From the NCBI RefSeq assembly GCF_038003525.1, contig NZ_JBBOPI010000001.1:2845001-2909000 (forward strand): a stretch of DNA of 64,000 bases, written 5' to 3'. The DNA is from Solibacillus sp. FSL H8-0538. GTDB lineage: Bacteria; Bacillota; Bacilli; Bacillales_A; Planococcaceae. The notes under the pieces were generated by a model. It was not told where the DNA came from. It saw only the letters and a program-made list of their open reading frames with translations, and made no database searches. This document shows, in pieces, positions 7,807 to 64,000 of this stretch (positions are counted from its first letter, which is position 1; each line of letters opens with the position of its first letter). Position numbers and translations under genes: made by a program.

Positions 7807-7935
7807 TCATTGTAGTTTTTCGAGTGCATTACTAATAAGGCGAGGGTTCACGCTACTGTTGTTTTTAGCTAACCCCACCGTGCTAAAGGACAACGTGATG
7901 GTGATCGTGGAGGCGATGTCGCATTGGGCTCGCAT
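7807..7935 (-). CDS. Possible small ORF (42 aa) with a strong ribosome-binding site, or remnant
   Basis: A 42-codon ORF starts ATG at 7935 just after a near-perfect SD (ggaggaggg, 5-base spacing). The predicted peptide begins MRAQCDIASTITITL and ends SNALEKLQ. The surrounding 7840-7975 stretch is clearly more GC-rich than its neighbours. I recognise no family. It could be a small protein or debris of an older gene. The rest of the 7793-8227 gap shows nothing recognisable. Confidence 0.25.
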   Translation of the reverse strand: MRAQCDIASTITITLSFSTVGLAKNNSSVNPRLISNALEKLQ

Positions 7936-8227
7936 GTTTGCCCTCCTCCTGTGCAAGGATCAGCTCCAGTAAGTTTTCACTAGTATTGTTTCCTTTCATA
8001 AAAACAAAAATGTTGTTTAACATAGCCAAAAATAAATCACTCATATCCAATTATCCCACATTATTTGCTGAGACATAATTTTCTAACGGGATTTGTCTCA
8101 ATTGGTGAGATTGAGCTACAACTTATTTGAAATTAAGCGTCAATGACACTTATTTACAGTTAAGTCGTATATTCAAATCATCTATTTTCGTATTTCTTTA
8201 AAAAAAAAAGCCGTTAATAAAATAAAT

Positions 8228-8488
8228 TTAAATAATACACTTCGCCTCAAACTTTATCGCAATCAGTTTATACGCGATTGTCACACAGTTTTCAAACGGA
8301 ATCCATTGTTCAAACGAATGCTCATATACTGTTTGAATAACTTTAGCGAGTTCTGTAGGATCATCTATACCTTGTAATGCAGCAACGACATCCGCTGTTT
8401 CTGTATCATAGCTGTTTACTCCTAGATTGAAAGGATCCCATGCTGCTAACATATGTACCGACTTTTGGTTCATTTCCACATTTTCCAT
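8228..8488 (-). CDS. yugE: DUF1871 family protein, YugE-like
   Basis: The 86-residue protein has the same length as B. subtilis YugE and the DUF1871 pattern: AAWDPFNLG, YDTETADVV, then a helical C-terminus with YEHSFEQWIP. Its function is unknown. It lies divergent from patB, which is also its neighbour in B. subtilis. SD is weak (gaggaaaa). Probably cytoplasmic, with no signal peptide or membrane segment. Confidence 0.85.
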   Translation of the reverse strand: MENVEMNQKSVHMLAAWDPFNLGVNSYDTETADVVAALQGIDDPTELAKVIQTVYEHSFEQWIPFENCVTIAYKLIAIKFEAKCII

Positions 8489-8570
8489 TTTTCCTCACCT
8501 GACTACTCATAATGTTATTTCGTATGATAACATATTACGTAGAATATCAAAAAGAAAAGAGTGATTTTGT

Positions 8571-9740
8571 ATGTCTATTTTTAATGAAACCGTTAGTCGA
8601 AGAAAATCTCAATCTTTTAAATGGGATCAAATGGAGAAGATTTATAACATTCCAGATGCGTCTGATATTTTACCTATGTGGGTAGCTGACATGGATTTTG
8701 CTGCACCAAAAGAAGTTATTGAGGCAATTGAAAAACGTCTCCAGCATCCCGTGTTTGGTTATTCTTATGTATGCGATGGCTGTAAGGATGCGATTGTTCA
8801 GTGGTTTGAACGCCGTTACAACTGGACGATTGATCTTCAAAGCATTTTATTCCATCACGGGGTTGTTCCCGCAATTGCGAGCATTATCGAAACGTTTACA
8901 GCACCGGGAGATAAGGTTGCGATTTCTACTCCAGTTTACCCACCCTTCTTTAATATTCCAACTGCACAGGGCCGTGTTGTTGAAGCTTGCGATTTAGTTG
9001 AAAAGAACGGAAGCTATGTATTTGATTTTGCCGCGCTGGAGGAAACGTTTAAACGCGGTGTGAGAATGTATATTTTATGTAACCCACATAATCCAGCTGG
9101 GGTAGTTTGGAGTCGGGAGGATTTAGAACAGCTCGTTTCGCTATGTATTCAGTATGAAGTTTACTTACTATCGGATGAAATTCATGCAGATATAATATTT
9201 GATAATAAAAAATACGTACCTATTTTAACAGTGAAGGATGCAGAGAAGGCGAAAATAATTAGTTGTATTGCACCAACAAAAACCTTTAACTTAGCTGGGA
9301 TTCAAGCAGCAATGATGGTCGTGCCAAATAGTAAACTACTCGCACAACTTGAGCTTAATGCACAAGCACACGGGCAAATGGCGCTGAACGCATTTGCCTC
9401 TGCTGCTGTACAAGCCGCGTATAGTCACGGCGAGGCTTGGTTAGATAAGCTGATTTCATACTTATCAATTAATATGGCTTATGTTTTGAAGGAATTAAAT
9501 GCACTTGAAGGGATTTCAGTGACGCAGCCGGACGGAACATATTTATTATGGATCGATTATCGACAAACTGGCTTGTCGGAGAATGATATAATGGAGCGCC
9601 TTTTAACGAAGGGCAAGCTAGCACTTGAACCTGGAACAAAATACGGACAAGCAGGTGAGGGCTTTTTACGCATGAACGTTGCCTGTTCCCTTGCCACTGT
9701 CCAAGAAGGGGTAAGTCGCTTTAAACAAGCACTTGCATGA
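8571..9740 (+). CDS. patB: PLP-dependent cystathionine beta-lyase / aminotransferase PatB (MalY/PatB family)
   Basis: The 389-residue fold-type I PLP enzyme starts with the MalY/PatB pattern RRKSQSFKWDQM and has LPMWVADMDF, CNPHNPAG, LLSDEIHADI and the Schiff-base lysine segment APTKTFNLAG. The family cleaves C-S bonds, releasing homocysteine or thiols plus pyruvate and ammonia, and may also transaminate. Full length. It lies opposite yugE with an 82-bp intergenic region. The cytoplasmic role in methionine and sulphur metabolism is inferred from the family. Confidence 0.92.
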   Translation: MSIFNETVSRRKSQSFKWDQMEKIYNIPDASDILPMWVADMDFAAPKEVIEAIEKRLQHPVFGYSYVCDGCKDAIVQWFERRYNWTIDLQSILFHHGVVPAIASIIETFTAPGDKVAISTPVYPPFFNIPTAQGRVVEACDLVEKNGSYVFDFAALEETFKRGVRMYILCNPHNPAGVVWSREDLEQLVSLCIQYEVYLLSDEIHADIIFDNKKYVPILTVKDAEKAKIISCIAPTKTFNLAGIQAAMMVVPNSKLLAQLELNAQAHGQMALNAFASAAVQAAYSHGEAWLDKLISYLSINMAYVLKELNALEGISVTQPDGTYLLWIDYRQTGLSENDIMERLLTKGKLALEPGTKYGQAGEGFLRMNVACSLATVQEGVSRFKQALA

Positions 9741-9944
9741 TTGAAAATGGGGTTTCCATGTAAAATTGGACTACTCCTTTTTTATTACTTCATAACACAA
9801 AAAACATAAACCAATAAAAAAATAGATACTTTACTCATATATGTTAATATAATACTTATTAAGACTTTTCAATTGGAGTTACCTTATTTAATACAGTCTT
9901 TCAAAAGAGGTGTTAAATCTCGCTCACAACGGGTGAAGCTAATT

Positions 9945-11507
9945 ATGAAAAATGTATCACTACGATTAAAAATGTTCATTTTCTCCTTTGTCATCGTGTT
10001 GTTTTCGATTATGACAAGTGGAGTGATGATGATTCACAATATTTCTGGTGCGTTCGAGAAGGAATTCGGGGCACGCGCAATTGCCATTGCACGAACTGTC
10101 GCTCAACTTTCTGATATCCAGAAAACAGTTGGCACAAACAAAGGTTTTGAGGTTATCCAACCAATTGCAGAGCGTATCAGACTGGCTACAGATGTCGACT
10201 ACATCGTTATTTTCGATACTGACGGCGTTCGCTATTCCCATCCTTCCCAATCGAAGGTCGGAACCCTTTTTGAAGGCACCGATCAAAATGAAGCATTATC
10301 CCAACACGAATATATCTCAAAGGGGCAGGGTGTACAGGGGTTTTCAATTCGGGCTTTTGTACCGATTTTAAATGTTGAAGGAACAAAGCAAGTAGGCGTC
10401 ATTAATGTAGGGATTCTATCTCCGAAATGGCATTTGCTTTTTAAATACTACCGTTCGGATATATTAATTTCATTGTTTTGGGGTATTTTAATTGGGCTTA
10501 TTGGCTCTGTATTAATTGCGAATCATTTGAAACGTCAAACACTTAATTTAGAACCTTATGAGATTGCTCGAATTGTACAAGAACGTTCCAGTATAATGCA
10601 GGCGATGGATATTGGGATCTTGGCAACAGATGCACATGGCAATGTTACGTTTATTAACCGACTGGCAAGGCAGTATACACACTTCTTCGGTAATACAACA
10701 AGACTAACTGAGTTATTTGATCAAACGTGGCTAGCAGACGATCAGCTTGAAACACATGACAATTATCGACCTCTACTCATGTATGATCAAATGTTTTTAG
10801 TCCGTACCTTCCCGATGAGTATTAATGATCGCAATGCTGGTTATTTAATTATGATGACAGACCGTAAAGAAGCGCATATGCTTGCCGAAGAACTGACAGG
10901 CATTCGAACGCTTGTTGATTCGCTTCGTGCTCAGCATCACGAGTATATGAACAGGTTACATAGTATTGCAGGGCTTATTCAGCTCAATCGTAACGAAGAC
11001 GCGCTTAGCTTAATTATTGATGAAATTTCTGATGAGGAAGAATTGACGCAAAACCTGCGTGATAAAATACATGACTACTCCATTCAAGGGTTATTACTCG
11101 GGAAATATTCACGGGCAAAGGAACTTGGGATTTCACTGATGATTGATGATGAGTCTTATTTAGATGAGTATATGACAGGGTTTTCAAGTGGGGATATGGT
11201 AACGATTATCGGCAATCTACTAGATAATTCGATGGAGGCGTGTCTGCAAAAGGAAATACAAGATGTTAGTCTACTTATCCAAGGCACGAAGCATTCGCTC
11301 ATGATTGAAGTACAAGATAGTGGACACGGCATTATAGGACCAGCCCAACGTATTTTTGAATATGGTTATAGTACAAAAAAAAGAGAGGGGCATGGCATTG
11401 GCTTAGCATTAGTGAAGCAACTTGTCGACTCCAACAAAGGCACTGTACATGTAAAATCTGAAGTCGATATTGGCACAACAATAACAATTAAAGCGGGGAT
11501 GAACTAA
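9945..11507 (+). CDS. dctS: Sensor histidine kinase of the CitA/DcuS/DctS family
   Basis: TM1 (about 8-30) and TM2 (about 175-195) bracket an extracytoplasmic sensor domain of about 140 residues (CitA/DcuS-type PAS/Cache). A cytoplasmic PAS domain (about 205-310) follows. The DHp box has RAQHHEYMNRLHSIAGLIQL with the phospho-accepting His, and the ATPase domain has GNLLDNSMEA, DSGHGI and GHGIGLALVKQ. The ATG at 9945 was preferred over the upstream TTG because the protein then starts like the family, although its SD is weak. The neighbouring TRAP genes point to C4-dicarboxylate sensing. The symbol follows the B. subtilis analogue. Confidence 0.88.
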   Translation: MKNVSLRLKMFIFSFVIVLFSIMTSGVMMIHNISGAFEKEFGARAIAIARTVAQLSDIQKTVGTNKGFEVIQPIAERIRLATDVDYIVIFDTDGVRYSHPSQSKVGTLFEGTDQNEALSQHEYISKGQGVQGFSIRAFVPILNVEGTKQVGVINVGILSPKWHLLFKYYRSDILISLFWGILIGLIGSVLIANHLKRQTLNLEPYEIARIVQERSSIMQAMDIGILATDAHGNVTFINRLARQYTHFFGNTTRLTELFDQTWLADDQLETHDNYRPLLMYDQMFLVRTFPMSINDRNAGYLIMMTDRKEAHMLAEELTGIRTLVDSLRAQHHEYMNRLHSIAGLIQLNRNEDALSLIIDEISDEEELTQNLRDKIHDYSIQGLLLGKYSRAKELGISLMIDDESYLDEYMTGFSSGDMVTIIGNLLDNSMEACLQKEIQDVSLLIQGTKHSLMIEVQDSGHGIIGPAQRIFEYGYSTKKREGHGIGLALVKQLVDSNKGTVHVKSEVDIGTTITIKAGMN

Positions 11508-51448: not shown

Positions 51449-52759
51449 TTAGATTAAAGTTAAATCGAAAGGTATTTTTTGCGTATTTATTATATCACCA
51501 TCATTAAGTTCAAAAATCCGAGTTAAACCAGGTGCATATGAAGGACTTATGTTATTGGCGTTTTTAATTAAATAGGATTCAACTGTATTTTGGTAAATAT
51601 ATTTATTTTGCATCGTCATTTTTATTTTTTCGTTCTTGTTTCCAACCACAAGTTTTGGTGAGATCTTACTGGAACTTCCAATAGGGATAACGAAATCTAG
51701 AGTTTCGTTGGAATTCCAAGGGAATTGTCCATTTAAATTATAAATAGCTTCCACAGTAGTATTTAATATTAATGTGTCCTTAGTTGGATCATATAAAATA
51801 TGACTTTGTAAAAATATAATTCCTGAAGTTGAAGAATAATTATTTTTAAATCGCTTTAAAAAATGTTCACACACGTTTGTTATATCGAGATATCTAGGGA
51901 TTTTAATAACAGTAATATTTTTCTTATTGAGTTTAGTGACATCTTTAAATTTGGCATTCGCTTTTTTTATGATTCGGTCAATTCTTGATAGCTCATTTTC
52001 CAAACTAAAATCAAAAAAAGAAGTGTAATCATAACTTATATTATTAAGTGAGTAGCCTTGGGTACCAGGTATTGTAGGTAATCTATGTTTGAAAGAATAA
52101 TAATTATCAGAACAAATAAATTCAGTAGGTTCTTGTTGTTTAAAATATCTTTCTATATTTGCACCAAACATAAATTTAATTTGTTCCAGTGTAGGAAAAG
52201 AATCTATCCTATTTACTTGTGAGGTTAACGTCCAACCAGTAACATTATAATCTTTTTGAGCCTGAATAAATTTATTCTCGGTATCTTTTGAATATGTTTC
52301 GAATTCGTAGTAATTGTCGGAAGGAAGACAGACTTTACAGGAAACTTGCAATTCTGTGCCTTTTAAAGTTGTAATATCTAGATCATAACCTTGAGCTGAA
52401 GGTGGTAGTAGTTGAACTTTATATTTATTTTCAGAAAAAAGGGTACTGACTAAAAGTTCGAAAATATACCCATTTTGATTTGAAATTTGTTTTCCTAATA
52501 TTTCAGTTTTTTTTCCATCAAAATCCGTTCTCTTATGACCTTGTTTTCTTAAGTATAAAATTGAGTAGCCAATTAAATATAGTTCTGTGTCTGAAGCCCA
52601 ATTAGGGTTTTGCCACATTATTTGAATAGGGTGTGTTCCTTTTTCTTGATTAAGCCATTCTTTCCCCAGCCACCATTGACATGCAGCGTAGACTTTAATT
52701 AAATTTTTTCTAGAAATATGTTGACTTAAAGTAGATCCTATTTGTGAAATTCCCTTCAT
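51449..52759 (-). CDS. PD-(D/E)XK-like protein downstream of the ATPase (third gene of the set)
   Basis: 436 residues. An N-terminal helical region (about 10-90) is followed by a nuclease-like pattern: Glu101 in GYIFELLVSTLF, Asp126/128 in GYDLDITTLKG, and ELQVSCK (Lys142). This E...D...QxxxK layout fits a PD-(D/E)XK fold, but some ligands are non-canonical. The C-terminal half (about 240-436) is unrecognised. It has its own SD (aaaggag), 60 bp after the ATPase gene on the same strand, so it is probably co-transcribed. Nuclease activity is inference. Confidence 0.7.
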   Translation of the reverse strand: MKGISQIGSTLSQHISRKNLIKVYAACQWWLGKEWLNQEKGTHPIQIMWQNPNWASDTELYLIGYSILYLRKQGHKRTDFDGKKTEILGKQISNQNGYIFELLVSTLFSENKYKVQLLPPSAQGYDLDITTLKGTELQVSCKVCLPSDNYYEFETYSKDTENKFIQAQKDYNVTGWTLTSQVNRIDSFPTLEQIKFMFGANIERYFKQQEPTEFICSDNYYSFKHRLPTIPGTQGYSLNNISYDYTSFFDFSLENELSRIDRIIKKANAKFKDVTKLNKKNITVIKIPRYLDITNVCEHFLKRFKNNYSSTSGIIFLQSHILYDPTKDTLILNTTVEAIYNLNGQFPWNSNETLDFVIPIGSSSKISPKLVVGNKNEKIKMTMQNKYIYQNTVESYLIKNANNISPSYAPGLTRIFELNDGDIINTQKIPFDLTLI

Positions 52760-52818: not shown

Positions 52819-54480
52819 TTACAATAAAAAATCAAACCATTTCACTAAGTCTCTATTATTATGTGAAACATCTTCTAAAATTGGTTTTTCTAAAAATATA
52901 ATGTTATATTCTATTGCTGAGTCTAAGTAATTTAAATTCTCTTCTATTATAGAGAAAAATATTTGTCTATTAAGACTAAAAAGGTTATTTTCAACATATT
53001 TAAACATTGCTGATTTAAATTCTTGTGAAGTTTCATTTTTAATAAAAGAGTCCATACCAAATGGCAATATATAATTAGAATGACTAACAATAATATTAAA
53101 ATAGATAATATATAGTGCTAAAATATTTTGATTGGCATCATTACCACTCGATTTAATTTCTCTAAAATCGAAATATTCAATCGCATTTAGATTAATTTCT
53201 TTCAACTGAAGATTAGCTTTATTTTTCAATTGCTGAAACAAAGTTTTACTTTTTATGGATTTTTCTTTGATTGTTTTTTTTCTATCACTAATTGACTTAG
53301 CTATTTCATTTTTTCTTTCTGTCTTAGTTAAAATTTCATTTTTTATTATTCGTTCTGTAAATAAATAATTTTGAGCCAATCTTTTATTAGTTTCTAACTC
53401 GATATAATGATTTACATTTGCTGATTTTTCTAATTCAATTAGCGATTCTTTAAGCCTTGTATATAAATTAGTATTTTCTACTTTTATGTTTATAAGAAAC
53501 TCTAATTTATTTTCAAATTTATTTAATTCATTCTGTTTTATATCTACTTGATGATTAATTTCAAATAAATTGTTTCTTATTTTTAATCGTGTTAGAGACT
53601 GTTCATATGTTAGTTTTGAATTACAATGCTTACACTCATATTTTATTTCCGTCTGTATTTCCTTATAACTAGCTGCTAATTTTTCCAATTCGTTTATATC
53701 GTATTTCAAAGTGTCAATCTTCTTTTGGATTGTAAAAACTTTATTATTATTTTCAGCAATTACTATTCCAATCTCATTAAATTTATTTAGATGTTCCTCT
53801 ATTTGTTTTTGATAATACTTTATATCAATTTCTTTATTTTGATTTGTGGCTATATATTTTTGCTGGGATTCTAATAAAATTAAAGAACTCAATTTCCGAT
53901 TAGCAGTTAAAATTTCTTTCGACAAATTTGCTTTTTTAACTTCTAATTCGATAATATCGGCATTAGATAAACCTATGTAATACTCTAAAACATCTTTAAC
54001 TATATTACTGTATCTACCATAAGAATCAGATGAATTCTTAAAAATATAACCACTCCATGATTTATCTTGATCTACATAAAACGGTAACAAAACCTCACTT
54101 GCATATACGCTTTTTAATTCTTCGCTCATTTTTTCTTTTGAAAGAATATTAATTCCTATCTTATTTTGTAACCATACTGAATATTCCATTTCTGTTAATG
54201 GAGATTTCTCTTCATCAATGTAAAATAAATTTTTTAATCTAGTAATTTTATACTCAGTTCCATTAAATAAAATACAGACTTGGACTACTTTATTATCTAT
54301 TTCCCAACCTTTTGGAAATATTTTAATTGAATAACCTAAACTATAATACAAAGTTTTCATTAAACTAGATTTACCAACAATATTTCCTTTACTAACAAAC
54401 AAGTTCACCTGAGATGTGAATTCAAATTTATTGATTTTTTTATCTACAAAATCATAAATTACTAGATGCTGTATTTCCAA
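52819..54480 (-). CDS. SMC/Rad50-like ATPase with a CxxC hook (LmuB/ABC-type defence ATPase)
   Basis: 553 residues from the TTG at 54480 (gggag SD at 8 bases; GTG 54489 overlaps it). Walker A GNIVGKSS (32-39). A long coiled coil is broken at its centre by CKHC (283-286), a zinc-hook arrangement as in Rad50 and RloC. Near the C-terminus come a signature-like SSGNDANQN and LPFGMDSF at the Walker B position. It probably dimerises and senses DNA. It overlaps the nuclease gene by 29 bp, so the two are tightly coupled. Confidence 0.8.
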   Translation of the reverse strand: MEIQHLVIYDFVDKKINKFEFTSQVNLFVSKGNIVGKSSLMKTLYYSLGYSIKIFPKGWEIDNKVVQVCILFNGTEYKITRLKNLFYIDEEKSPLTEMEYSVWLQNKIGINILSKEKMSEELKSVYASEVLLPFYVDQDKSWSGYIFKNSSDSYGRYSNIVKDVLEYYIGLSNADIIELEVKKANLSKEILTANRKLSSLILLESQQKYIATNQNKEIDIKYYQKQIEEHLNKFNEIGIVIAENNNKVFTIQKKIDTLKYDINELEKLAASYKEIQTEIKYECKHCNSKLTYEQSLTRLKIRNNLFEINHQVDIKQNELNKFENKLEFLINIKVENTNLYTRLKESLIELEKSANVNHYIELETNKRLAQNYLFTERIIKNEILTKTERKNEIAKSISDRKKTIKEKSIKSKTLFQQLKNKANLQLKEINLNAIEYFDFREIKSSGNDANQNILALYIIYFNIIVSHSNYILPFGMDSFIKNETSQEFKSAMFKYVENNLFSLNRQIFFSIIEENLNYLDSAIEYNIIFLEKPILEDVSHNNRDLVKWFDFLL

Positions 54481-55432
54481 ACATTTCACTCCCTTTCGAA
54501 CTAATAATTTCTATTGTTATAGCTACTAAAACACTATTTTCAGCTTTTCCCTTAAATCGATTCAAAACTTCATCGATAATTTCTCTATCTGGTTTTAATT
54601 CAAAATCAATTCCTTCTAACCAAATTTCAATATCCCTCTTTAAACTCTTATACATTAACTCAATTTTTAATTGTTCACCTTTAACCTTTGCCATAAATGC
54701 TGTTGGAAACGTTAATCGATTCAATATATCATCAAAAGTTATAAGTTCTATTGTTTGTATCAAGGTTTTCTTAAAATACTCCTGAGAAAGCTCTTTTAAT
54801 ATTAATTGCCCCTCATCTTCTATAACAATTTCACTTTTTTGATCAATCATTAAAGACAGCTCTGCAATAATTTCTCGCCCTTTATTGTTATCTATTTTTA
54901 TCCCTTTAATATTTAATTTTCCAGTCAAATAAATAATCACATCTGTAAGTTCATTGGGAAACGGTGGAAAATAAATTTTAAAATTATCTAGCCTAGCTTC
55001 TACATCATTCAAATCACCTTTTAAAGTTTGAATTACAGTATTTTTTTGATCAACACTTAATATATATACTCTTTCACATATATCCCCAGGAGTCTTGGTT
55101 TCTAGTAACTTCTTTTCTTTTTCAATAAAATCTCGTAAAAATATTTTATGATGATTGTTAGGAGTACCTGTCTCTAAGTTTTTTTGAAGAATAGATGGGA
55201 AGACTTTTTTCTTTTTCGTTTGTGATTTAATTAAATTTGAAACACTTAATTTTTGATTTTTACATTGCACAAAAGCTTTATAATTAATATATTCAATTAC
55301 AAAATCATCTTCCCCCTCTACAACTACAGTAAAATTTTCTTTTAAAAAATTATCTATTATCACATTAATAATGCTAGCTTTTTGAAAATTAAATCCTCTT
55401 ATTGCATATGCTCCACCATTATCTAAGGCCAT
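54452..55432 (-). CDS. Cap4/DUF4297-like nuclease-domain protein (LmuA-like)
   Basis: 326 residues from ATG 55432 (SD gaggtg). The N-terminus has the DUF4297/Cap4 dsDNA nuclease layout: GGAYAIRGFNFQKAS, then VVVEGEDDF (Glu/Asp-Asp), then FVQCKN (Lys58), the PD-(D/E)XK core. The C-terminal 200 residues are unrecognised and may contact the ATPase. Lamassu LmuA proteins and several ABC-ATPase defence systems pair such a domain with an SMC-like ATPase. First gene of the set. Confidence 0.75.
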   Translation of the reverse strand: MALDNGGAYAIRGFNFQKASIINVIIDNFLKENFTVVVEGEDDFVIEYINYKAFVQCKNQKLSVSNLIKSQTKKKKVFPSILQKNLETGTPNNHHKIFLRDFIEKEKKLLETKTPGDICERVYILSVDQKNTVIQTLKGDLNDVEARLDNFKIYFPPFPNELTDVIIYLTGKLNIKGIKIDNNKGREIIAELSLMIDQKSEIVIEDEGQLILKELSQEYFKKTLIQTIELITFDDILNRLTFPTAFMAKVKGEQLKIELMYKSLKRDIEIWLEGIDFELKPDREIIDEVLNRFKGKAENSVLVAITIEIISSKGSEMFGNTASSNL

Positions 55433-55609
55433 TTTATTAACACCTCTATTCACTTTTTACATTTAATTGAGGAAGAATTTCTGGAATGATATCTAAATAC
55501 ATAAAAAAGAATTTTGTATATCACTATAAATAATAACTTAAATATAATTTTTTTCCATATTTATGTTATATAATTATTTATATACAAAATTACGAAATGA
55601 GGAATCTCT
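55433..55609. promoter_or_regulatory. Divergent intergenic region between two defence-like operons
   Basis: 177 bp, very AT-rich, carrying start signals for both directions. It must hold the promoters of the three-gene set (minus) and the two-gene operon (plus), so they may be co-regulated. TATATAAT-like stretches (55566-55580) suit the + strand, but exact hexamers are not clear. Confidence 0.4.
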
Positions 55610-56284
55610 ATGAAGGTTGCTGATTATATAAAGATTTTTACTCAAGCATTGAATAAAGTAAATAATGTTTATTATGGTAATAAGGATTGGGTAGATTCTA
55701 TGTTAAACGGTAATAATGTCTTTGAAAAAGATCCTCGAAGAGAAAAGTTAATCCCTCTTCTCAGTAAGCACCATGAAAGAGTTTTTTGTTACGAACTTTA
55801 TCATCAAGCAAGAAAAATAATGGAAACTAAGCAACTTACTAACCAAGTATTTCTTCAAGCAGAGCTTCGAAAAAATCAAGTAACATCAGAAATTGAAGAA
55901 TTATTCGAAATTAAAAATATTAACGGACCATATTATCCCGACTTTTTAATACATAATCCATTATCTTTTGATGATCAATATTTAATTATAGAAGTAAAGG
56001 CAAATCCTGAATTAAATATTAACGATATGGTAAGAGATATTAAAAAAATTGATGAATTTATCAATAAGTATAACTATCAAAAGGGAATTTTCTTAGCTAT
56101 TAATCTTTCTGAAAAAAGACTGAAAGCACTTCTAAATAACAATGAATTTTTGAAAGAAATCAATGATAGTATTAGTTACAAAGATAAAATATTATTAATT
56201 TTTAAAGAGGATGCAAATAAGAATCAAAAATTAATAAACCTTAATACACTTATAGAAAATAAAGGAGTATCTGATGATTTTTGA
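55610..56284 (+). CDS. PD-(D/E)XK nuclease-like protein, first gene of a divergent pair
   Basis: 224 residues with a textbook PD-(D/E)XK site: Glu62 in CYELYHQ, Pro110-Asp111 in YYPDFLIHNP, and Glu128-x-Lys130 in LIIEVKANPE, on an alpha/beta scaffold with a helical N-terminus. It fits a DNA endonuclease similar in size to restriction enzymes, but no methylase gene is near. SD gaggaa. The next gene overlaps its end by 11 bp. The target is unknown. Confidence 0.75.
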   Translation: MKVADYIKIFTQALNKVNNVYYGNKDWVDSMLNGNNVFEKDPRREKLIPLLSKHHERVFCYELYHQARKIMETKQLTNQVFLQAELRKNQVTSEIEELFEIKNINGPYYPDFLIHNPLSFDDQYLIIEVKANPELNINDMVRDIKKIDEFINKYNYQKGIFLAINLSEKRLKALLNNNEFLKEINDSISYKDKILLIFKEDANKNQKLINLNTLIENKGVSDDF

Positions 56285-57521
56285 ATACAAATGGCCTCAT
56301 GCGAATCCAAATATGAAACTTATTAAATCTTTAGAAAACAAGATCACGATTCATAACAATAATACTATGGATAAAGTCTTCTATGAATATGCATGCAATT
56401 TCAAAAAATCTGCTAGAATTGTTGTCGATAAATTGGTTAATAATCAAAATATTAGCGAATTGGACAGTTATTTTTTCTCAGTAGCTTTCTTATATAGGCA
56501 TTCTCTCGAATTGCTTTTAAAAGCTATTGGGTTTAAATCCATTCAAAATGCTGAAGAAGGAAAATTATTTATTAAAGATACATTTCACAATCTATCGGGT
56601 TTATTTGAATCTATAATTCCATTTATTAATTGTATTGATTTAGATAGGGTAGAATGGTTAAGAGAATATTTTAATAGCATTAATTCCATGGATAAAGAAT
56701 CGGATTCTTTTCGTTATCCATTTAGCATTAAGTTCAAAAAAGACGAAGGGAACCCTAAAACATATTTTATTGAACCTTTCTTTGCTAAACAAACCCATAT
56801 AGATTTAGTATCATTTGTAAATAAAATAGAAGCGGCATTTTCAATTTTAAATAGTTTCTATAAAGAATCTGCTACTTATGATGAATTATATAAAGATTAC
56901 TCACCTACTTTTTTAGATGAAGGAGGCAATTATCGCCTTCAAAGCGTTATAGGATACAATTATCAAAGACAGCGATTTTATCCACTAATCAGGGCTTATA
57001 CTGAATGTGCACAGCTGTTATTTTTAGAGTATAAAAATAATAAATATTTAGGCTATACTATCTTTTTCCCGATGACATATTTATTTAGAAACGGGTTAGA
57101 ATTATCAATGAAGGAAATTCTTTTTGAAGAATGTAATTTAGACTTTCAAACTTCAGCGAAACTTTTGAAAGATTGCAGCCATAATGTAAATAAACTCTGG
57201 AAGAATATAAAACCAGAAATTATTAAACACTCTCTTCATTCAGAAGATAATCATACTTTGGATTATGTTGAAAAGTACATATGTCAAGTTCATGATTTTG
57301 ATGGAGCATCTGATAAATTTCGCTACCCAACTAATAAATATCTTAATTTTTATTTTAATAAAAAAACTAATTTTGATATTGAGAATATTTATGAGTTTTT
57401 CACAGAGGTCAACAATTTCTTCGGAGGTGCATCTTCAATGATGTCTTCACAAAATGAATTATTGGCTGACATGGAAGCAGAGTATAGGGCTGAAATGCAA
57501 TCATACTACGATTATTACTAA
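56274..57521 (+). CDS. Unknown protein with an internal duplication, partner of the PD-(D/E)XK nuclease
   Basis: 415 residues. Two halves repeat the same pattern: 65-150 (LYRHSLELLLKAI, FHNLSGLF, SDSFRYP) and 260-352 (LFRNGLELSMKEI, SHNVNKLW, SDKFRYP). The helical motif with an invariant Arg and LEL..K, then HN, then SDxFRYP recalls HEPN-like folds, but no RX4-6H catalytic motif is seen. SD aaaggag; ATG lies inside the end of the nuclease gene, so the two proteins are made together and may form one complex. I do not recognise a named family. Confidence 0.7.
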   Translation: MIFEYKWPHANPNMKLIKSLENKITIHNNNTMDKVFYEYACNFKKSARIVVDKLVNNQNISELDSYFFSVAFLYRHSLELLLKAIGFKSIQNAEEGKLFIKDTFHNLSGLFESIIPFINCIDLDRVEWLREYFNSINSMDKESDSFRYPFSIKFKKDEGNPKTYFIEPFFAKQTHIDLVSFVNKIEAAFSILNSFYKESATYDELYKDYSPTFLDEGGNYRLQSVIGYNYQRQRFYPLIRAYTECAQLLFLEYKNNKYLGYTIFFPMTYLFRNGLELSMKEILFEECNLDFQTSAKLLKDCSHNVNKLWKNIKPEIIKHSLHSEDNHTLDYVEKYICQVHDFDGASDKFRYPTNKYLNFYFNKKTNFDIENIYEFFTEVNNFFGGASSMMSSQNELLADMEAEYRAEMQSYYDYY

Positions 57522-57569
57522 AACATCCCATTACTTATAATCAAAATTATTTATTCAAAAAAATCCCTA

Positions 57570-57620
57570 AAAAACAGCGATTCTTCTTTCTGTACATTAG
57601 AAGAATCGCTGATTAAATTT
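57570..57620. terminator. Bidirectional terminator between convergent genes
   Basis: cagcgattcttct / agaagaatcgctg perfect 13-bp arms between the two-gene operon and the ParA partner gene. Confidence 0.85.
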
Positions 57621-57683
57621 AAAAAGTATCATTTGAATTTTCGAAGATCATACCAGAAATTACATAATTGTTTATTTCATAAC

Positions 57684-58133
57684 TCACAAATTTTTAATCA
57701 TATCCTGTGTTCTTGCCTCGTTATCAAAATAATTTTTAATCATATAATAAATATCTAATTTTGTTTTTCGCTTCTGAATAGGAATATTAGAAATAATAGA
57801 ATATAAATACTTTAGCTCTGGAAGAGTAATCATATTTATAAATTGGCTATCCTCTATATCAGAAAATAAATTAGACAGCGAATTATAGTAATAGCTCCTC
57901 AATTCATCTATTTGTGTAATATTTGCAATTTCATCACGAAGTACTTCTTTTTTTTCTATTTTTAATTCTTTACTCTCTGATGCGAAAAGTATTTCATGAA
58001 CCTCTTCTGGAGTATATTTGAAGTTTTTTATAAACTTAGAATTAAAAAATGTTTGTGGTTTAGAACTATTAATTATAGGATATAAAGCTTTGTAAATTTC
58101 AAATAAATCCTTTTCTATGGCTTCCTTATCCAT
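57684..58133 (-). CDS. Unknown partner protein of ParA
   Basis: 149 residues, soluble and mostly helical (FNSKFIKNFKYTPEEVHEIL, ELKYLYSIISNIPIQKRK). It starts 2 bp after the ParA stop with SD aggagg inside the parA end, so it is expected to work with ParA as an adaptor or centromere-binding protein. No ParB motif is seen. Confidence 0.7.
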   Translation of the reverse strand: MDKEAIEKDLFEIYKALYPIINSSKPQTFFNSKFIKNFKYTPEEVHEILFASESKELKIEKKEVLRDEIANITQIDELRSYYYNSLSNLFSDIEDSQFINMITLPELKYLYSIISNIPIQKRKTKLDIYYMIKNYFDNEARTQDMIKNL

Positions 58134-58135
58134 GT

Positions 58136-59140
58136 CTAGCCTCCTAATATTTCAATTAATACATTCGATATTTTCTTATAGGATGGAGTAATTTTTCCCC
58201 TAGCTGTATTTTGAGGAATACTTTCTCCACCCGAACGATTATCTTTATTAGCTATATAGTCTTTAAATATATGTTTTGTCTCAAAACTATCTTCACTTTT
58301 ATTATATCTATATTTATCATAATTTTTACTTGATAGAACCGATTGAATATTTATCTGTGTAATATTCCTATCTAAACTTTCAATTTGATGGCTATTATCT
58401 GCATTACCTCTCCTTTCTTTATAAATAGTTTCAAACACCCCCAAAAATTTCGGCTTTGATTTAAAGATCTTAGTTACCATTATGCCACCAACCTGTTCAT
58501 GCATACTAAACTTATTATAAGTTTTTTCAATTTCAGTGATATAATCAGGTACACCCTTAGTACTTACCTCATCACAAATAGTTGGTACAATATAATAGTC
58601 TGAGGATAAAAATACACTTTGTATTAACAAATTGCTTGTAGGTGGACAGTCAAAGAAAATATAATCAAATTTATCCATTCTCCTTATATTTTCGATAAAT
58701 AATTTCATCAAAAACACATTATTTATATTATCATTCATCCGTTGTGCTAACTCATTTAATCGGCTATTCTCATAGCTTAAACTTGAGGGAATATAATACA
58801 AGTTAGATTGTGTTTCCAAACTACACTTTTGGATGGCGTTTTCTATATGTACATTAAATTCGACGATGCCCTCATCAAAATTCCCTGTTAATAACATAAA
58901 ATCAAATAATGGTGTATTTTTAATATATCGAATATATAGCTCTACAATATAATTAAATGTCTTTTCAACTTGTACATTATTCGATTGATTTGAAGCACAT
59001 ATATTACTTAATGAACATTGTGGGTCCAAATCAATTACCAACACTTTTTTTCCATTTAATGCAAAGTGTCCAGCTACCTGATATACACTTGTAGTTTTCC
59101 CTACTCCACCTTTATAATTTCCCCAAAAAATCGTCTTCAT
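58136..59140 (-). CDS. ParA-family ATPase
   Basis: 334 residues. Deviant Walker A KGGVGKTT (10-17) with the signature Lys, Walker A' VLVIDLDPQCSLS, and FIFFDCPPTSN (Walker B). The long C-terminal half has no known domain. ParA proteins position or partition plasmids and mobile elements. SD aaggggga precedes the ATG. With its small partner it suggests the island is, or was, able to maintain itself as an extrachromosomal form (inference). Confidence 0.88.
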   Translation of the reverse strand: MKTIFWGNYKGGVGKTTSVYQVAGHFALNGKKVLVIDLDPQCSLSNICASNQSNNVQVEKTFNYIVELYIRYIKNTPLFDFMLLTGNFDEGIVEFNVHIENAIQKCSLETQSNLYYIPSSLSYENSRLNELAQRMNDNINNVFLMKLFIENIRRMDKFDYIFFDCPPTSNLLIQSVFLSSDYYIVPTICDEVSTKGVPDYITEIEKTYNKFSMHEQVGGIMVTKIFKSKPKFLGVFETIYKERRGNADNSHQIESLDRNITQINIQSVLSSKNYDKYRYNKSEDSFETKHIFKDYIANKDNRSGGESIPQNTARGKITPSYKKISNVLIEILGG

Positions 59141-59351: not shown

Positions 59352-59846
59352 TTATCGAATTTTGTTCCTCCTTCGTTTGCTGTGGTGCAGGGAATAATCA
59401 TGTAAATTATTTAAACCTAAATTTCTATTAACTGATTCATTAAAATTGATTAAGTTATTTTTCAGCCCCATTTGATTTCTTAAAGTTGCATCTACACTGG
59501 CTACAGTAATTTGTTCGTACAATTGCCTGTAGTGCTCTTTTTCTAACTTCAGCTTACCAATATACTCTTCTTGTTCTTTAGCTCTTTCTGTGACCTTCTG
59601 GACCGCTTTAAACTTAGCCTTCAATTCATTTCTCTCTTTAAATAAATGTTGAAATAATATTTCGAAATCCTGAAGTTCGTTAATAATTTTATCAGTGTTA
59701 TTTCCATACAGCTAAAAAATACTTTCAATATTTGGAAAGTACATTTCATCGCCATCTACATTATTAATTTCACGAACAATTGGAGTATTTAATTCTTGTA
59801 TAAAGCTCTCCAATCTCCTTTTCCAAGTATTTCTGCTTATTGCCAC
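59352..59846 (-). pseudogene. Tn554 TnpC-like accessory gene split by an in-frame amber codon
   Basis: One frame runs from GTG 59846 (SD aagggg) to 59352 with a single TAG at 59712-59714 (codon 45). The N-terminal part is RNTWKRRLESFIQELN, and after the TAG comes LYGNNTDKIINELQDFEILF, then a long coiled coil ending in basic KRRRNKIR. Together 164 residues, near the size of TnpC (125). A downstream TTG at 59624 could restart translation. Either an inactivated gene or read-through. Confidence 0.6.
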
Positions 59847-59863
59847 TCGCCCCTTATATATAT

Positions 59864-60607
59864 CTATTTATCATCACGAAAATTATCTGTTATTTGTTGT
59901 AGTCTGCTTTTTCTAATCGGAGTAACTATGGTATCTTTTTTTGAATTCTCGTCAATTGTATTTTTCTTTCTATACTCTTCAAACTTTTCATAACCCTCCA
60001 TTGGATTAGAAAATGCAGTTTCAAAAAACAAATCAACGATAGGTTGTCTCGATTTTCCTGTTGTAATTAAATTTGTCAAAGGAACATCGGTTTTAAGACT
60101 TGCGTTGAACCAAGAGAATAATATCATTTGTTGTTGTTTAACTAATGCCTGTAATTCCTTATTTTTTTCATGGTGTACAGACAATTCCTCTTTCATAGTA
60201 TCTATTTTTACTAATAGATTATTCGATTCTTTAGCCTTTTTCTCATTTATTTTTAAGGCTTCTATTAATCTTTTTTTATCAGATGGTTTCCCCGAAAAGA
60301 ACTTATTAACACATTCTTCGGTATCCACATAAACACCATGAGATTTATCATTTTTATTAATTATTGTGTTTTCGTATAACTTATTTGTCTTATCAATTAT
60401 TTCTTTTCCTTGTCTACCATCTCTTCTCCAATAATCTTCACTTAATTTATAGTTTATAACCCTCTCCTCATATAGTTTGTTAGCGAAACGATAGACTTCT
60501 GAATACTTAATCCACCCTGTAACTTTTTCCTTTTGAGTAAATAGGTAAATAATATTTTCAATCTCTGCTTGAGGATATATGGAAGGCTTTCTACCCCTTG
60601 TTTCCAA
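59864..60607 (-). CDS. Recombinase-operon accessory protein, function unknown
   Basis: 247 residues. The N-terminal region IYLFTQKEKVTGWIKYSEVY resembles a DNA-binding helix-turn-helix, and a coiled coil (about 125-165) follows. TTG start overlaps the end of the recombinase gene by 17 bp, and SD aaagga is nearby. Three overlapping or adjacent genes in a row suit an accessory to the recombinases. Confidence 0.65.
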   Translation of the reverse strand: METRGRKPSIYPQAEIENIIYLFTQKEKVTGWIKYSEVYRFANKLYEERVINYKLSEDYWRRDGRQGKEIIDKTNKLYENTIINKNDKSHGVYVDTEECVNKFFSGKPSDKKRLIEALKINEKKAKESNNLLVKIDTMKEELSVHHEKNKELQALVKQQQMILFSWFNASLKTDVPLTNLITTGKSRQPIVDLFFETAFSNPMEGYEKFEEYRKKNTIDENSKKDTIVTPIRKSRLQQITDNFRDDK

Positions 60608-62351
60608 TTAATTCAATCCTTTCTTTTACTTTTGCGAGATTCACATATTTTCTCACTGCATTGTCTATTCGTTTAGATTTATTAATTAATTCTTTACGAA
60701 TATCATTGTTATCATTTGAATAAAATTCATCTTTTCCAATATTAGCGTAGATCCCTTTATATAAGTCTTTAAGATTCTCTATCACATTATTTAACTCAGA
60801 TTCACTGTCTGATAATTTCCTCTCTAAAATACACCTCTTTTCAATAAATTCTTCTTCTGAAATCCTCCATGAAGTACATTGCCAACAATCCTCAACTTTG
60901 CACCGTTGGTGCGGGTCAGTACAATAACCATCTATCATTTTCATTTTGAAATTTGTTTGCGACGGTCTTAATACATATTTCTCAATGAAGGACATGCTTA
61001 TTTGTTGCTCATGGTTGAAATCCGAATCAATTTTATGTTTGTAGCTATCCAAATCACTGTTGGTAATTAACTCTAATACTTCAAGGTCTACAAAACTCTG
61101 AATATGGTTAAAGTAATGATTCTGTGTTTGTAATGTAACATGTCCGCCCAGCCTTGCAATCTCGGTAGGATGATAGCCCTGTCTTTTTAGATTGATGAAC
61201 GCCAAGTGCCTTGTATCACCCACTCTAAGTTGTTGAGAAATACAGGATAAAGTATTTTTACTGGATTCGTTTTTATCTAATCTAACCTTATACTTCAAAA
61301 AAACTATATGTTTGTAAAAAGAAGATAAATTATTTCTAAAAAGTGTCAAAGAAAATTTGTATGGTTTAAGTCTAAGTGTATGGTAATAAACATTTTCAAC
61401 ATACTCGCCATTAACGATATTGGGCATTGAAAGATAAGAAATTAATGTTTCTGTTCTTCCATATGATGCTGTTCTATGTTTATATTTTTCTATCTCACTA
61501 TATAATTTTTCAGAAATCCTAACTTCATTTAAAATTTGTATATTTCTTTTGTTATTCAGCTTTTGTTTATGTCTTGGAAGTTTTATATAATAATTATCAC
61601 CTTTTTTAAAAATACAGTCTCTGTCTATATTGCAGTATTCACTTGGTCTTATAGGAATCAGAGTAGTTAAGTTCCACCATAACCATACTGGGAACCATTT
61701 TCTATATTCTAAATCGGACATCTCATTAGAAAAGTAATCTTCTAAAAGCTTTGAAAAAAAAAGGATATCTTTAGAGGGAGGAAGAAGTCTTGCCTCAACT
61801 TTATTTATTACTTTAAATGAATATATCATCGATATATATTCTTCAATTTCAATTGGATAATCATTATAATAATCAAAAAAGTTCAATATACTATTACGAA
61901 TAGTATTTTTCCTTCTATTTGAGAAAGCAGCGAATTCTTCGGCTATCTCTTCATAATTATTACTTGTAAATCCATTTGTTAAATTAAGAAATGATCTCAA
62001 TCCTTCGTGTACCATTTGTACAATAACAGTAGAATTATAGCCTTGGTTAATTAATGAAGCAGTCCAACATTTAACTATATTGATAAACTCTGTAGTGTTT
62101 ATTTTTTTGTTAAATTGTATAGATTTTTTCACTGTATTGAAATCAACAGAAGCTCTTTTAGACTCCAAAGGTAACTCAATGTACCATTTGTTTTCTTTAA
62201 ATTCACATTTACTTAGTTGATGTATCCTCATTTCATCCTCAAGGATTATTTTCGATTCCTCAATAGAGCTGTTTAAATCATAACTACTATCCGAATATTC
62301 CTGAACTTTATCTATTAATTCCTCCATAATATCCGTTATCGTAGTTTCCAT
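60591..62351 (-). CDS. Large tyrosine recombinase (Tn554 TnpB-like)
   Basis: 586 residues with catalytic residues Arg235 (IPIRPSEYC), Arg381 (GDTRHLAF), His404 (ARLGGH) and Tyr413 (QNHYFNH), in the usual order and spacing. The first His of the HxxR box is replaced by Gly378. After the domain a cysteine cluster (CTDPHQRCKVEDCWQC) may bind zinc. It probably cuts and joins the ends of the island as an integrase. SD aaagaggg before the ATG. Confidence 0.85.
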   Translation of the reverse strand: METTITDIMEELIDKVQEYSDSSYDLNSSIEESKIILEDEMRIHQLSKCEFKENKWYIELPLESKRASVDFNTVKKSIQFNKKINTTEFINIVKCWTASLINQGYNSTVIVQMVHEGLRSFLNLTNGFTSNNYEEIAEEFAAFSNRRKNTIRNSILNFFDYYNDYPIEIEEYISMIYSFKVINKVEARLLPPSKDILFFSKLLEDYFSNEMSDLEYRKWFPVWLWWNLTTLIPIRPSEYCNIDRDCIFKKGDNYYIKLPRHKQKLNNKRNIQILNEVRISEKLYSEIEKYKHRTASYGRTETLISYLSMPNIVNGEYVENVYYHTLRLKPYKFSLTLFRNNLSSFYKHIVFLKYKVRLDKNESSKNTLSCISQQLRVGDTRHLAFINLKRQGYHPTEIARLGGHVTLQTQNHYFNHIQSFVDLEVLELITNSDLDSYKHKIDSDFNHEQQISMSFIEKYVLRPSQTNFKMKMIDGYCTDPHQRCKVEDCWQCTSWRISEEEFIEKRCILERKLSDSESELNNVIENLKDLYKGIYANIGKDEFYSNDNNDIRKELINKSKRIDNAVRKYVNLAKVKERIELIGNKG

Positions 62352-62363
62352 AGAATCCCTCTT

Positions 62364-64000
62364 TCAATCTATAAATTGTAAGTTCTCTGGGTCTGGCTGT
62401 TCTTCTAATTCATTTATTACATTATTTAATTCATTATTAATCAACATCACTATTATTTCTTCCCCAAACTTTCTTTTGGCTTCCATAATACTTGTATAAT
62501 CTCTAAGCAATAAGTTATAAAGTTTATTTTTCTCTCCTAATGGAATATCTGCTTTTCTTGCTATGTCCTTATACTTAATAAGAGTTCGCTTTATCCTCTT
62601 AGCAATAACGCTAATTGTATAAAAATGTGGGATAGAAAACGGACAATTACTACATTCAATTTCATTAGAGATGCATTTAGAAAATAAACATTGGTATGTT
62701 TGTTCTTTTGCTGGTGAAAGACCAAGATTAATTAAATTTAATTTTTTCTTTAACTCTTCTTTAGGCATTTCTTCAAATAATTTACCTAAATCTTCTCGTT
62801 CTTGTGATAAATAATTCAAATAAGCTGTTGTATCTTCCAATTTAACAACGTCACCAAATAAAGCCCTTAGTTCGATTGACTTTTTTGTTTGCTCTATTCT
62901 ACTGACAGGACTCTCTCCAATTAAGAAATGATTTAATTGAGAATATATAAATCCAAAGTAGCCTGTATCAAATAGCTGCCCCATGATAAAATCTAAATGC
63001 TCTGGAGGAAGTTGAATGTAAATGTTAGAAGTTTCCCTGCTTACATGACCCCGTAAATGTTGAGCAATCGTTACCGGATCGCTATCTAAAGTAGATTCAA
63101 TTACTGAACTTGTATAAGTTAAAACAGTTCTATTCATTTTTCTGGATTCAAATCTAAAATCATCTGAATGATTTTTAAAAAATGAATCATGAGAACTGGA
63201 GCTAACTCTATTCTCCTTAGTATAAAAATGAATTAGATTCGATTCATCATCAAGATGTAATTTTCTACACCTAAACTCACATATTAAAATTGCATAAGCC
63301 ATTGGCAAGGTTAGTAAACTGGAACAATAAAATGTTGCCTTTTCTTTAGTCTTATTATGTTCAAACCATTGTACCTGATAAAAACTTACGATTTTTAATG
63401 CATCACTGTAAGTTAATTTAAGGTTTTCTAATGATTCAATAGTATTTATATTCAATTCATCAAACGAGGAACTATGAAAGCGTGGAAAGTCTAAAACAGT
63501 GCCATTTCTCCAACCATTGTTCATGTGTAGCAAAACATATAACCACATAGAATCATATTTTTTATATTCCTTACTATTTGTTAATCCTTTTTTAATATCT
63601 TCTATCGCTAATCTTTTATGGGTATCATAGTCACTAACATAATTATTCAAACTCAAATATTCCTCAACAGAGTAAATTTCTTTTTCTTTTATGCCTTTGC
63701 TATTATTGCTATGTTTAAAATTTATTTTTGACAAGTCAAAAATTCTTTTCCCAAATCTCTGTTCACTATTTTGTGTGATGTTAAACAGGAAAGAACGTAG
63801 TTCTTTTCTATGCTTAAACGAGACATGGTTATTAAACAACCCTAAATTAAGTTCTTTCTCAGAGAACTCACTAATTTCTTTACTACCTATAAAATCAACA
63901 AAGATTTTTGTGATTTTAGATAAATCTACCACTCTTCTAATACAACTTGTTCTATTTCCGTTCATTTTTTTCAGTTTCCAATCAACATATTGAAACCAAA
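62364..64000 (-). CDS. Second recombinase-like protein, continues past the right edge
   Basis: The ATG at 63965 has no SD, and the frame stays open to 64000 (WFQYVDWKLKK upstream), so the real start is probably outside. Features are NNGWRNGTVLDF and QHLRGHVSRETSNIY (HxxR-like and Tyr positions of a tyrosine recombinase, weakly conserved), plus a Cys cluster (CLFSKCISNEIECSNC). It ends 12 bp before the next recombinase. Likely partner of that enzyme in a Tn554-like set. Confidence 0.65.
   Translation of the reverse strand, partial: WFQYVDWKLKKMNGNRTSCIRRVVDLSKITKIFVDFIGSKEISEFSEKELNLGLFNNHVSFKHRKELRSFLFNITQNSEQRFGKRIFDLSKINFKHSNNSKGIKEKEIYSVEEYLSLNNYVSDYDTHKRLAIEDIKKGLTNSKEYKKYDSMWLYVLLHMNNGWRNGTVLDFPRFHSSSFDELNINTIESLENLKLTYSDALKIVSFYQVQWFEHNKTKEKATFYCSSLLTLPMAYAILICEFRCRKLHLDDESNLIHFYTKENRVSSSSHDSFFKNHSDDFRFESRKMNRTVLTYTSSVIESTLDSDPVTIAQHLRGHVSRETSNIYIQLPPEHLDFIMGQLFDTGYFGFIYSQLNHFLIGESPVSRIEQTKKSIELRALFGDVVKLEDTTAYLNYLSQEREDLGKLFEEMPKEELKKKLNLINLGLSPAKEQTYQCLFSKCISNEIECSNCPFSIPHFYTISVIAKRIKRTLIKYKDIARKADIPLGEKNKLYNLLLRDYTSIMEAKRKFGEEIIVMLINNELNNVINELEEQPDPENLQFID

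Follow-up and report, generated by a model that had tools for sequence, protein, structure and literature searches.

A tandem HEPN-T-like gene behind a PD-(D/E)XK-like nuclease gene in Solibacillus sp. FSL H8-0538, and the varied defence neighbourhoods of its relatives

The window analysed here is a stretch of 64,000 nucleotides from Solibacillus sp. FSL H8-0538 (contig NZ_JBBOPI010000001.1, positions 2,845,001 to 2,909,000). It holds two forward-strand genes that overlap by 11 bp (56274-56284), exactly as the original prediction had placed them. The first, P0001 (55610-56284), is an ORF encoding a 224-aa PD-(D/E)XK-like nuclease, recognized by its P110-D111 and E128-V129-K130 motif. The second, P0002 (56274-57521), encodes a tandem HEPN-T-like protein of 415 aa, so named from its ORF, an AlphaFold2 model and profile comparisons. 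Reading of the sequence pointed to likely forward-strand ribosome-binding sites for both P0001 (TGAGGA, 55598-55603) and P0002 (AAAGGAG, 56261-56267), the latter located within the 3' end of P0001 and 6 nt ahead of the P0002 ATG. Downstream of P0002, folding revealed a terminator-like hairpin with a perfect 13-bp stem and an 11-nt loop (57575-57611, given without a strand), which was absent from the output of a terminator scan.

The defence operon said to adjoin the pair is a Lamassu operon. It lies on the reverse strand, divergent from P0001, and its LmuA (DUF4297; 54452-55453, E = 1.4e-77) and LmuB (SMC-like ATPase; 52819-54489, E = 6.9e-151) genes are neighbours outside the pair. The third gene of this operon (51449-52759, reverse strand, 436 aa) had a weak match in Pfam (0.02) and none in PADLOC or NCBIfam; by eye, its GYDLDI...QVSCK stretch resembles a restriction-endonuclease core. 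A divergent promoter shared by the two operons had also been proposed, and this idea was not borne out: 55300-57750 held 14 promoter-like sites where shuffled sequence would be expected to give 18.2, and zero lay on the forward strand between the operons. On the other side, a ParA-like ATPase gene (AAA_31, 4.7e-32) and a 149-aa uncharacterised gene behind it (57684-59140, reverse strand) are convergent with P0002. Genes for two integrase-like proteins (586 and 533 aa) and two smaller genes occupy 59352-63965 on the reverse strand; the 586-aa protein matched Phage_integrase in Pfam (0.0011) and the 533-aa one was named by eye. The arrangement resembles the recombinase genes of Tn554-like elements and may be what carried the island. 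The G+C content is 25-33% from about 48 kb onward compared to 35-43% before, and P0001-P0002 falls within the low-GC stretch.

The catalytic residues originally proposed for P0001 stood up well, since P110-D111, E128-V129-K130, E62 and E85 are invariant in all four rows of its alignment (A4), one of which is a shortened ORF. The stretch ERVFCYELYHQ is also conserved in A4. We infer that P0001 has nuclease activity. The sole Pfam hint was a TnsA-like endonuclease over residues 99-148 (E = 0.0027, below the cut-off), no PADLOC match was obtained up to E = 1, and so none to PD-Lambda-3_A, and modelling of P0001 alone gave a pLDDT of 47, too poor to judge a PD-(D/E)XK core fold. Relatives of P0001 are rare, with three of 261 genomes of the order and five of 398 of the class, its own genome being included in both counts and the four other class-level relatives being weak. 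One more was found in a plasmid record (L008), and none in viral contigs or phage records. L008 is accompanied by UvrD and DUF262 genes, L041 by DISARM-like genes (DrmD-, PglX/DrmMI- and Mrr-type), and one intervening gene separates L042, a shortened ORF, from a SIR2-like gene upstream. Among the closest known systems is PD-Lambda-3, which includes a PD(D/E)XK domain according to a table in PMC10952713 and acts by abortive infection according to a passage of PMC13190303. Its PADLOC family PD-Lambda-3_A was matched weakly by the L008 nuclease (0.0022) and well by the more distant nucleases L133 and L134 (4.2e-21 and 1e-28), whereas P0001, L041 and L042 had no PD-Lambda-3 match.

The duplication in P0002, also part of the original prediction, is far beyond chance. 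A 47-row single-domain profile (P0002 left out, with some rows being fragments of two-domain proteins) matched the protein twice, at E = 1.7e-45 and 2.1e-35, compared to 0.017 at best for reversed P0002. Repeat 1 spans approximately residues 31-205 (56364-56888, forward strand) and contains R75, E79-x3-K83, H105, D140 and F146-R147-Y148-P149. Repeat 2 spans approximately residues 229-395 (56958-57458, forward strand), and the conserved set is present alike as R272, E276-x3-K280, H303, D343 and F349-R350-Y351-P352. Among 140 domain instances, K83 and H105 are present in all, E79 and R147 in 139, Y148 in 138, D140 in 135, R75 in 133 and F146 in 129. Of the residues once listed as invariant (an Arg, HN and SDxFRYP), the N of HN is constant solely in repeat 1 across the eight two-domain rows that make up alignment A3, and it varies in the wider family. 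AlphaFold2 (35 rows) predicted with confidence two mainly helical repeats (pLDDT 90.9, pTM 0.91), but Foldseek returned no match to this model in the PDB at E ≤ 0.001, an absence that does not itself count as evidence. P0002 reached the threshold of no family in PADLOC, NCBIfam or Pfam, yet it appears HEPN-T-like, hence not an unknown domain.

Relatives of P0002 were found in 12 of the 261 genomes of the order (its own included), in seven plasmid records and in at least 80 loci of the genome collection, and none in viral contigs or phage records. Single-domain relatives occur in Pseudomonas, Planctomycetota, Acidobacteria, a cyanobacterium and others. PDB sequence searches gave nothing relevant; influenza haemagglutinin chains, the sole PDB matches of profile A6 (E = 0.13 or worse), were taken as chance. 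Searching NCBIfam with 22 single-domain rows, we set aside Drt2, whose first-row match was limited to the foreign C-terminus of a truncated ORF, and six other families with one weak match each. The truncated ORF (7989-8585 of locus L083) is a hybrid, broken within the domain and carrying a tail that matches the Drt2 C-terminus (1.5e-5).

Several comparisons related the repeated domain to HEPN-T (PF05168). The motif order of the P0002 family (E-x3-K, His, Asp, RYP) is in register with that of 33 genuine PF05168 proteins, in which a His (33/33) and an Arg (32/33) are aligned opposite H105 and R147. Since this set was built from the 30 best-scoring loci of one search and three of the four from another (L124 failed to join the profile), it represents one part of PF05168. 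Against it, hhalign scored the joint domain profile at 33.2 (single-comparison E = 3.8e-5, probability 71%) and the single-domain profile at 31.0, compared to maxima of 20.3 and 20.4, respectively, in 200 column shuffles and to 12.9 and 13.4 for the reversed profiles. Profiles of repeat 1 only and repeat 2 only scored 15.8 and 19.2, inside the shuffle range as taken from the joint-profile shuffles. With Pfam, matches shared by two or more of the 22 single-domain relatives were confined to HEPN (four rows, best 0.0022), and the relative at L037 matched HEPN at 9.4e-4. Four of five consensus sequences also matched HEPN (0.0028 to 0.068), about as well as the consensus sequences matched the unrelated families Mis12 (0.0027) and DUF7880 (0.0092). 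None of the matches of P0002, its relatives or the consensus sequences reached the curated Pfam cut-off. As for the four-helix HEPN fold, structure comparison is no more than suggestive: with VIA, the best match of the P0002 model was the HEPN domain of Csm6 (Z 6.9), tied with a rhodopsin (Z 6.7).

As for the putative active site, the canonical Rx4-6H is present in six of 139 instances at the RYP arginine and in none of 133 at R75. The E-x3-[KR] of the HEPN superfamily is found in the P0002 family as E79 and K83, and an alternative His N-terminal to a basic residue as H105 and R147, at the frequencies given above. According to Anantharaman et al. 2013 (PMC3710099), the Rx4-6H His is typically missing from AbiV and from AF0298-type HEPN-T proteins, in which another conserved His is a possible alternative RNase site. 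By its motifs, the P0002 family fits this description, sharing with HEPN-T (typified by AF0298, 2hsb) and AbiV the E-x3-K, the His N-terminal to a basic residue, RYP and the absence of the Rx4-6H His. AbiV itself (PF18728) had no match in the genome that holds P0002 and was missing from the Pfam results for P0002 and its relatives. The family differs from HEPN-T by staying below the Pfam cut-off, by a domain of about 170 residues compared to a 117-position profile, by the LYR[HQN] ahead of the E, by its frequent duplication, and in that no MNT partner was noticed. Like the P0002 family, HEPN-T clusters with R-M operons, as listed in a table of PMC3710099; many more kinds of defence neighbour were seen for the P0002 family. 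Taken at the level of sequence, the P0002 family resembles the HEPN-T branch of the HEPN superfamily.

To describe these neighbourhoods, we parsed 99 loci, 96 fetched with the partner (P0002-family) gene and three with the nuclease. Removal of duplicates (L033, L034, L035, L061, L103), nuclease-only loci (L008, L041, L042) and two loci in which no partner ORF reaching 80 aa was called left 89 distinct partner loci. ORF calling was greedy with approximate start codons, family searches covered a chosen subset of partner loci, and locus counts do not equal frequencies in nature because the searches were seeded with P0002 and its relatives. A same-strand gene (at least 100 aa, within 250 bp) was present upstream in 54 of the 89 loci, downstream in 39 and on neither side in 23, so the partner gene is able to stand alone.

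Defence genes recur around the partner family, and the suggested role in immunity is thus probable. In two BREX loci, L037 (family search) and L040 (by similarity), PglZ lies on one side of the gene and the gene for a roughly 1170-aa protein, taken as PglX by eye and position, on the other, with gaps of 31-90 bp to these flanking genes; L111 is a further BREX case (PglZ, by similarity). Type I R-M genes are about 0.5 kb away in L004, adjoin the gene in L038 (by similarity) and surround it in L109, where its two neighbours are HsdR (by similarity) and, judged by position, a putative HsdS. Family searches identified Gabija (GajA and GajB) in L032, Avs3a split over two ORFs in L065, Lamassu-like PDC-M46A/B in L034, HerA in L030, a Ser/Thr kinase in L033, TIR-SLOG in L003, TIR-SIR2 in L059, HEPN_LA2681 in L051, DUF2806 in L055 and AAA_14-DUF4143 in L082. 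Similarity pointed to Avs3 in L073 and to Gabija-like loci with an OLD-like ATPase nearby in L077, L099, L101-L103 and L108, while record annotations gave Shedu in L006 and RelA/SpoT in L007. At L083, a PD-Lambda-3_A-type nuclease gene (8.8e-8) is 127 bp upstream of the truncated P0002 relative. Some neighbours had no family match, such as those of 413 aa in L043 and 282 aa in L048.

Other features of these loci were observed along the way. In several Pseudomonas species (L099, L101, L102, L103 and L108, around 7854-11216), the single-domain relative is convergent with a UvrD-like gene (by eye) and an OLD-like ATPase gene. In L031, L032 and L053, TniQ-like genes (by eye) stand close to single- and two-domain relatives, which would be cargo of putative Tn7-like elements. 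The partner gene is at or near an rlmH homologue (by eye) in L038, L081, L083 and L089; we take rlmH to be a known integration site. Kindred mobile-element backbones in L059, L061, L062 and L076 keep the partner gene while the upstream cargo varies (TIR-SIR2, a SEC-C protein or none). DUF2971-like proteins (by eye) also recur near the family (L035, 6186-6947; L048, 3187-4095; L076, 9975-10874; L104, 6203-7162).

A tree of 45 two-domain proteins contained sister rows with differing upstream genes (L030/L043, L033/L034), and DNA comparisons located where such pairs begin to match. In L030, which has HerA upstream, and L043, which has an unannotated operon there, identity reaches 95% over a block that opens 14 bp ahead of the ATG and closes some 165 bp past the stop, a few tens of bp beyond a hairpin, with no further matching block within 4 kb upstream. 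For L054 (PDC-M46) and L057 (kinase), the block (86%) opens 8 bp upstream of the start and closes some 130 bp past the stop, again beyond a hairpin. The hairpins of these two pairs stand 3' of the partner gene at a distance similar to that in the window. L031 (345-aa gene) and L032 (Gabija) match at 92% from about position -12, and their block continues through a common downstream gene. Identity begins within approximately 35 bp of the called ORF start in L059/L064 (93%), L050/L051 (84%) and L059/L062 (80%), the last pair sharing a mobile backbone further out. Counter-examples with upstream DNA also in common are L037/L040, L065/L073, L052/L056, L082/L087, L084/L089, L115/L117, L114/L116 and most Pseudomonas pairs. 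In diverged pairs, the border at the start codon may stem partly from faster change of intergenic DNA, which is unlikely for the pairs at 92-95% identity.

Because the HEPN-like gene adjoins many defence systems, apparently as a swappable accessory, P0001-P0002 looks like one of many combinations and not like a fixed new system; we view it as two combined defence parts that are each found in other company too. P0002 belongs to a widespread HEPN-T-like family for which we found no name, with its domain duplicated here into a covalent pair. The account we lean towards, though with less than even confidence, is that P0002 is an exchangeable tandem HEPN-T-like gene, probably for an RNA-acting second-line effector, with P0001 as the DNA-nuclease first line. 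The P0002 gene would be a 3' module that brings its own ribosome-binding site and downstream hairpin. P0001 would attack invading DNA, and co-expressed P0002 would bind or cleave RNA through an alternative site of His (H105/H303) and Arg (R147/R350), as proposed for HEPN-T and AbiV, halting growth once the first line is overwhelmed or blocked. The ORFs, the duplication, the HEPN-T motif correspondence, the range of defence settings and the borders of exchange were observed, and the RNase activity and trigger of P0002, and any contact with P0001, are what we infer here.

Two known arrangements provide the analogy. Stand-alone HEPN genes within or beside BREX loci have been read as suicide effectors in sections of PMC12839542; L037, L040 and L111 may be of this kind, but the P0002 family also occurs by Gabija, Avs3, Shedu, TIR, HerA, kinase, Lamassu-like and type I R-M genes. 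PrrC/PrrI combines R-M with an HEPN ribonuclease as a second line of defence, as outlined in parts of PMC3710099, and the logic proposed for P0001-P0002 is alike, with a DNA-targeting first line and an RNA-acting second line. P0002 differs from PrrC in having neither the ABC ATPase domain nor the canonical motif. By analogy with PrrC and the BREX backup effectors, a second-line, RNA-acting role is the most likely one for P0002.

Alternatively, P0002 could be a defence that works on its own from a single gene, or some other cargo of the island; its neighbourhoods would then reflect hitchhiking within defence islands instead of a functional link. The copies in L081 and L089, which adjoin the rlmH homologue (by eye) with no other close upstream gene, fit this view, as do the copies in mobile elements, those in Pseudomonas without an operon, and a homology block that brings its own ribosome-binding site and hairpin. 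The gene is, however, also placed inside operons, as in L037/L040, where PglZ and PglX (the latter named by eye and position) flank it, and in L109, where HsdR and a putative HsdS do, and we regard this possibility as unlikely, if still worth serious consideration. Somewhat less likely again is a regulator or antitoxin-like silencer, in which a generic HEPN-fold clamp would hold the upstream effector (nuclease, TIR, kinase or RelA/SpoT) inactive until infection. P0002 does overlap and follow a potentially toxic nuclease, its relatives follow other potentially toxic effectors (TIR, RelA/SpoT, Shedu), and HEPN domains can serve as non-catalytic regulatory or dimerisation modules (in the parts of PMC3710099 consulted). 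For AbiA, defence does not depend on the HEPN residues, and the domain was read as structural (a passage of PMC11077055), which also speaks against the effector account. Yet a single family would have to silence more than 10 unrelated effector types, and close copies with differing upstream genes, like the 23 of 89 loci with no close same-strand neighbour, would be unusual for a dedicated antitoxin.

The original prediction had envisaged a dedicated two-gene system. Co-occurrence was its suggested check, and no P0001 relative was found beside a P0002 relative; the link of the partner family to defence nevertheless holds. Of the 99 loci, nuclease profile A4 matched the three nuclease-fetched ones and no others (E up to 0.05); because it finds no second pairing, the pair is not conserved elsewhere as far as searched, an outcome that the original prediction had itself named as refuting, and the dedicated system was dropped for want of a second case. 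An obligate two-subunit complex of P0001 and P0002, forming a specific new two-gene defence system, is accordingly improbable: the 11-bp overlap, the second ribosome-binding site within the first gene and the distant PD-Lambda-3_A-matching nuclease of L083 speak for it, but nuclease relatives are rare and none of the other six nuclease places, including the non-relative L136 (E = 0.61), is beside a partner.

Returning to P0002 as an exchangeable second-line effector, a bolder and rather doubtful extension is that one mobile tandem HEPN gene could be a universal plug-in effector, joined via its ribosome-binding site to the rear of almost any defence operon (BREX, R-M, Gabija, Avs, Shedu, TIR, kinase, HerA or a free nuclease) and triggered by a signal that all of them have in common, for example nucleic acid damaged by phage or a blocked first line. 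That HEPN domains serve as add-ons to defence systems is already known. Searching literature mostly outside subscription papers and bioRxiv, we found none on the P0002 family or on such gene exchange; as far as searched, the tandem HEPN-T-like family, the breadth of its partners and the exchange at the start codon are new. For annotation, the family accounts for unnamed proteins within or beside BREX, R-M and Gabija loci. The natural swaps, with the same add-on behind another upstream system and DNA 86-95% identical, represent ready-made test pairs. If one add-on serves many unrelated systems, it must recognise a common feature, and, if this is true, finding that common signal would bear on how bacteria sense the failure of their first line of defence.
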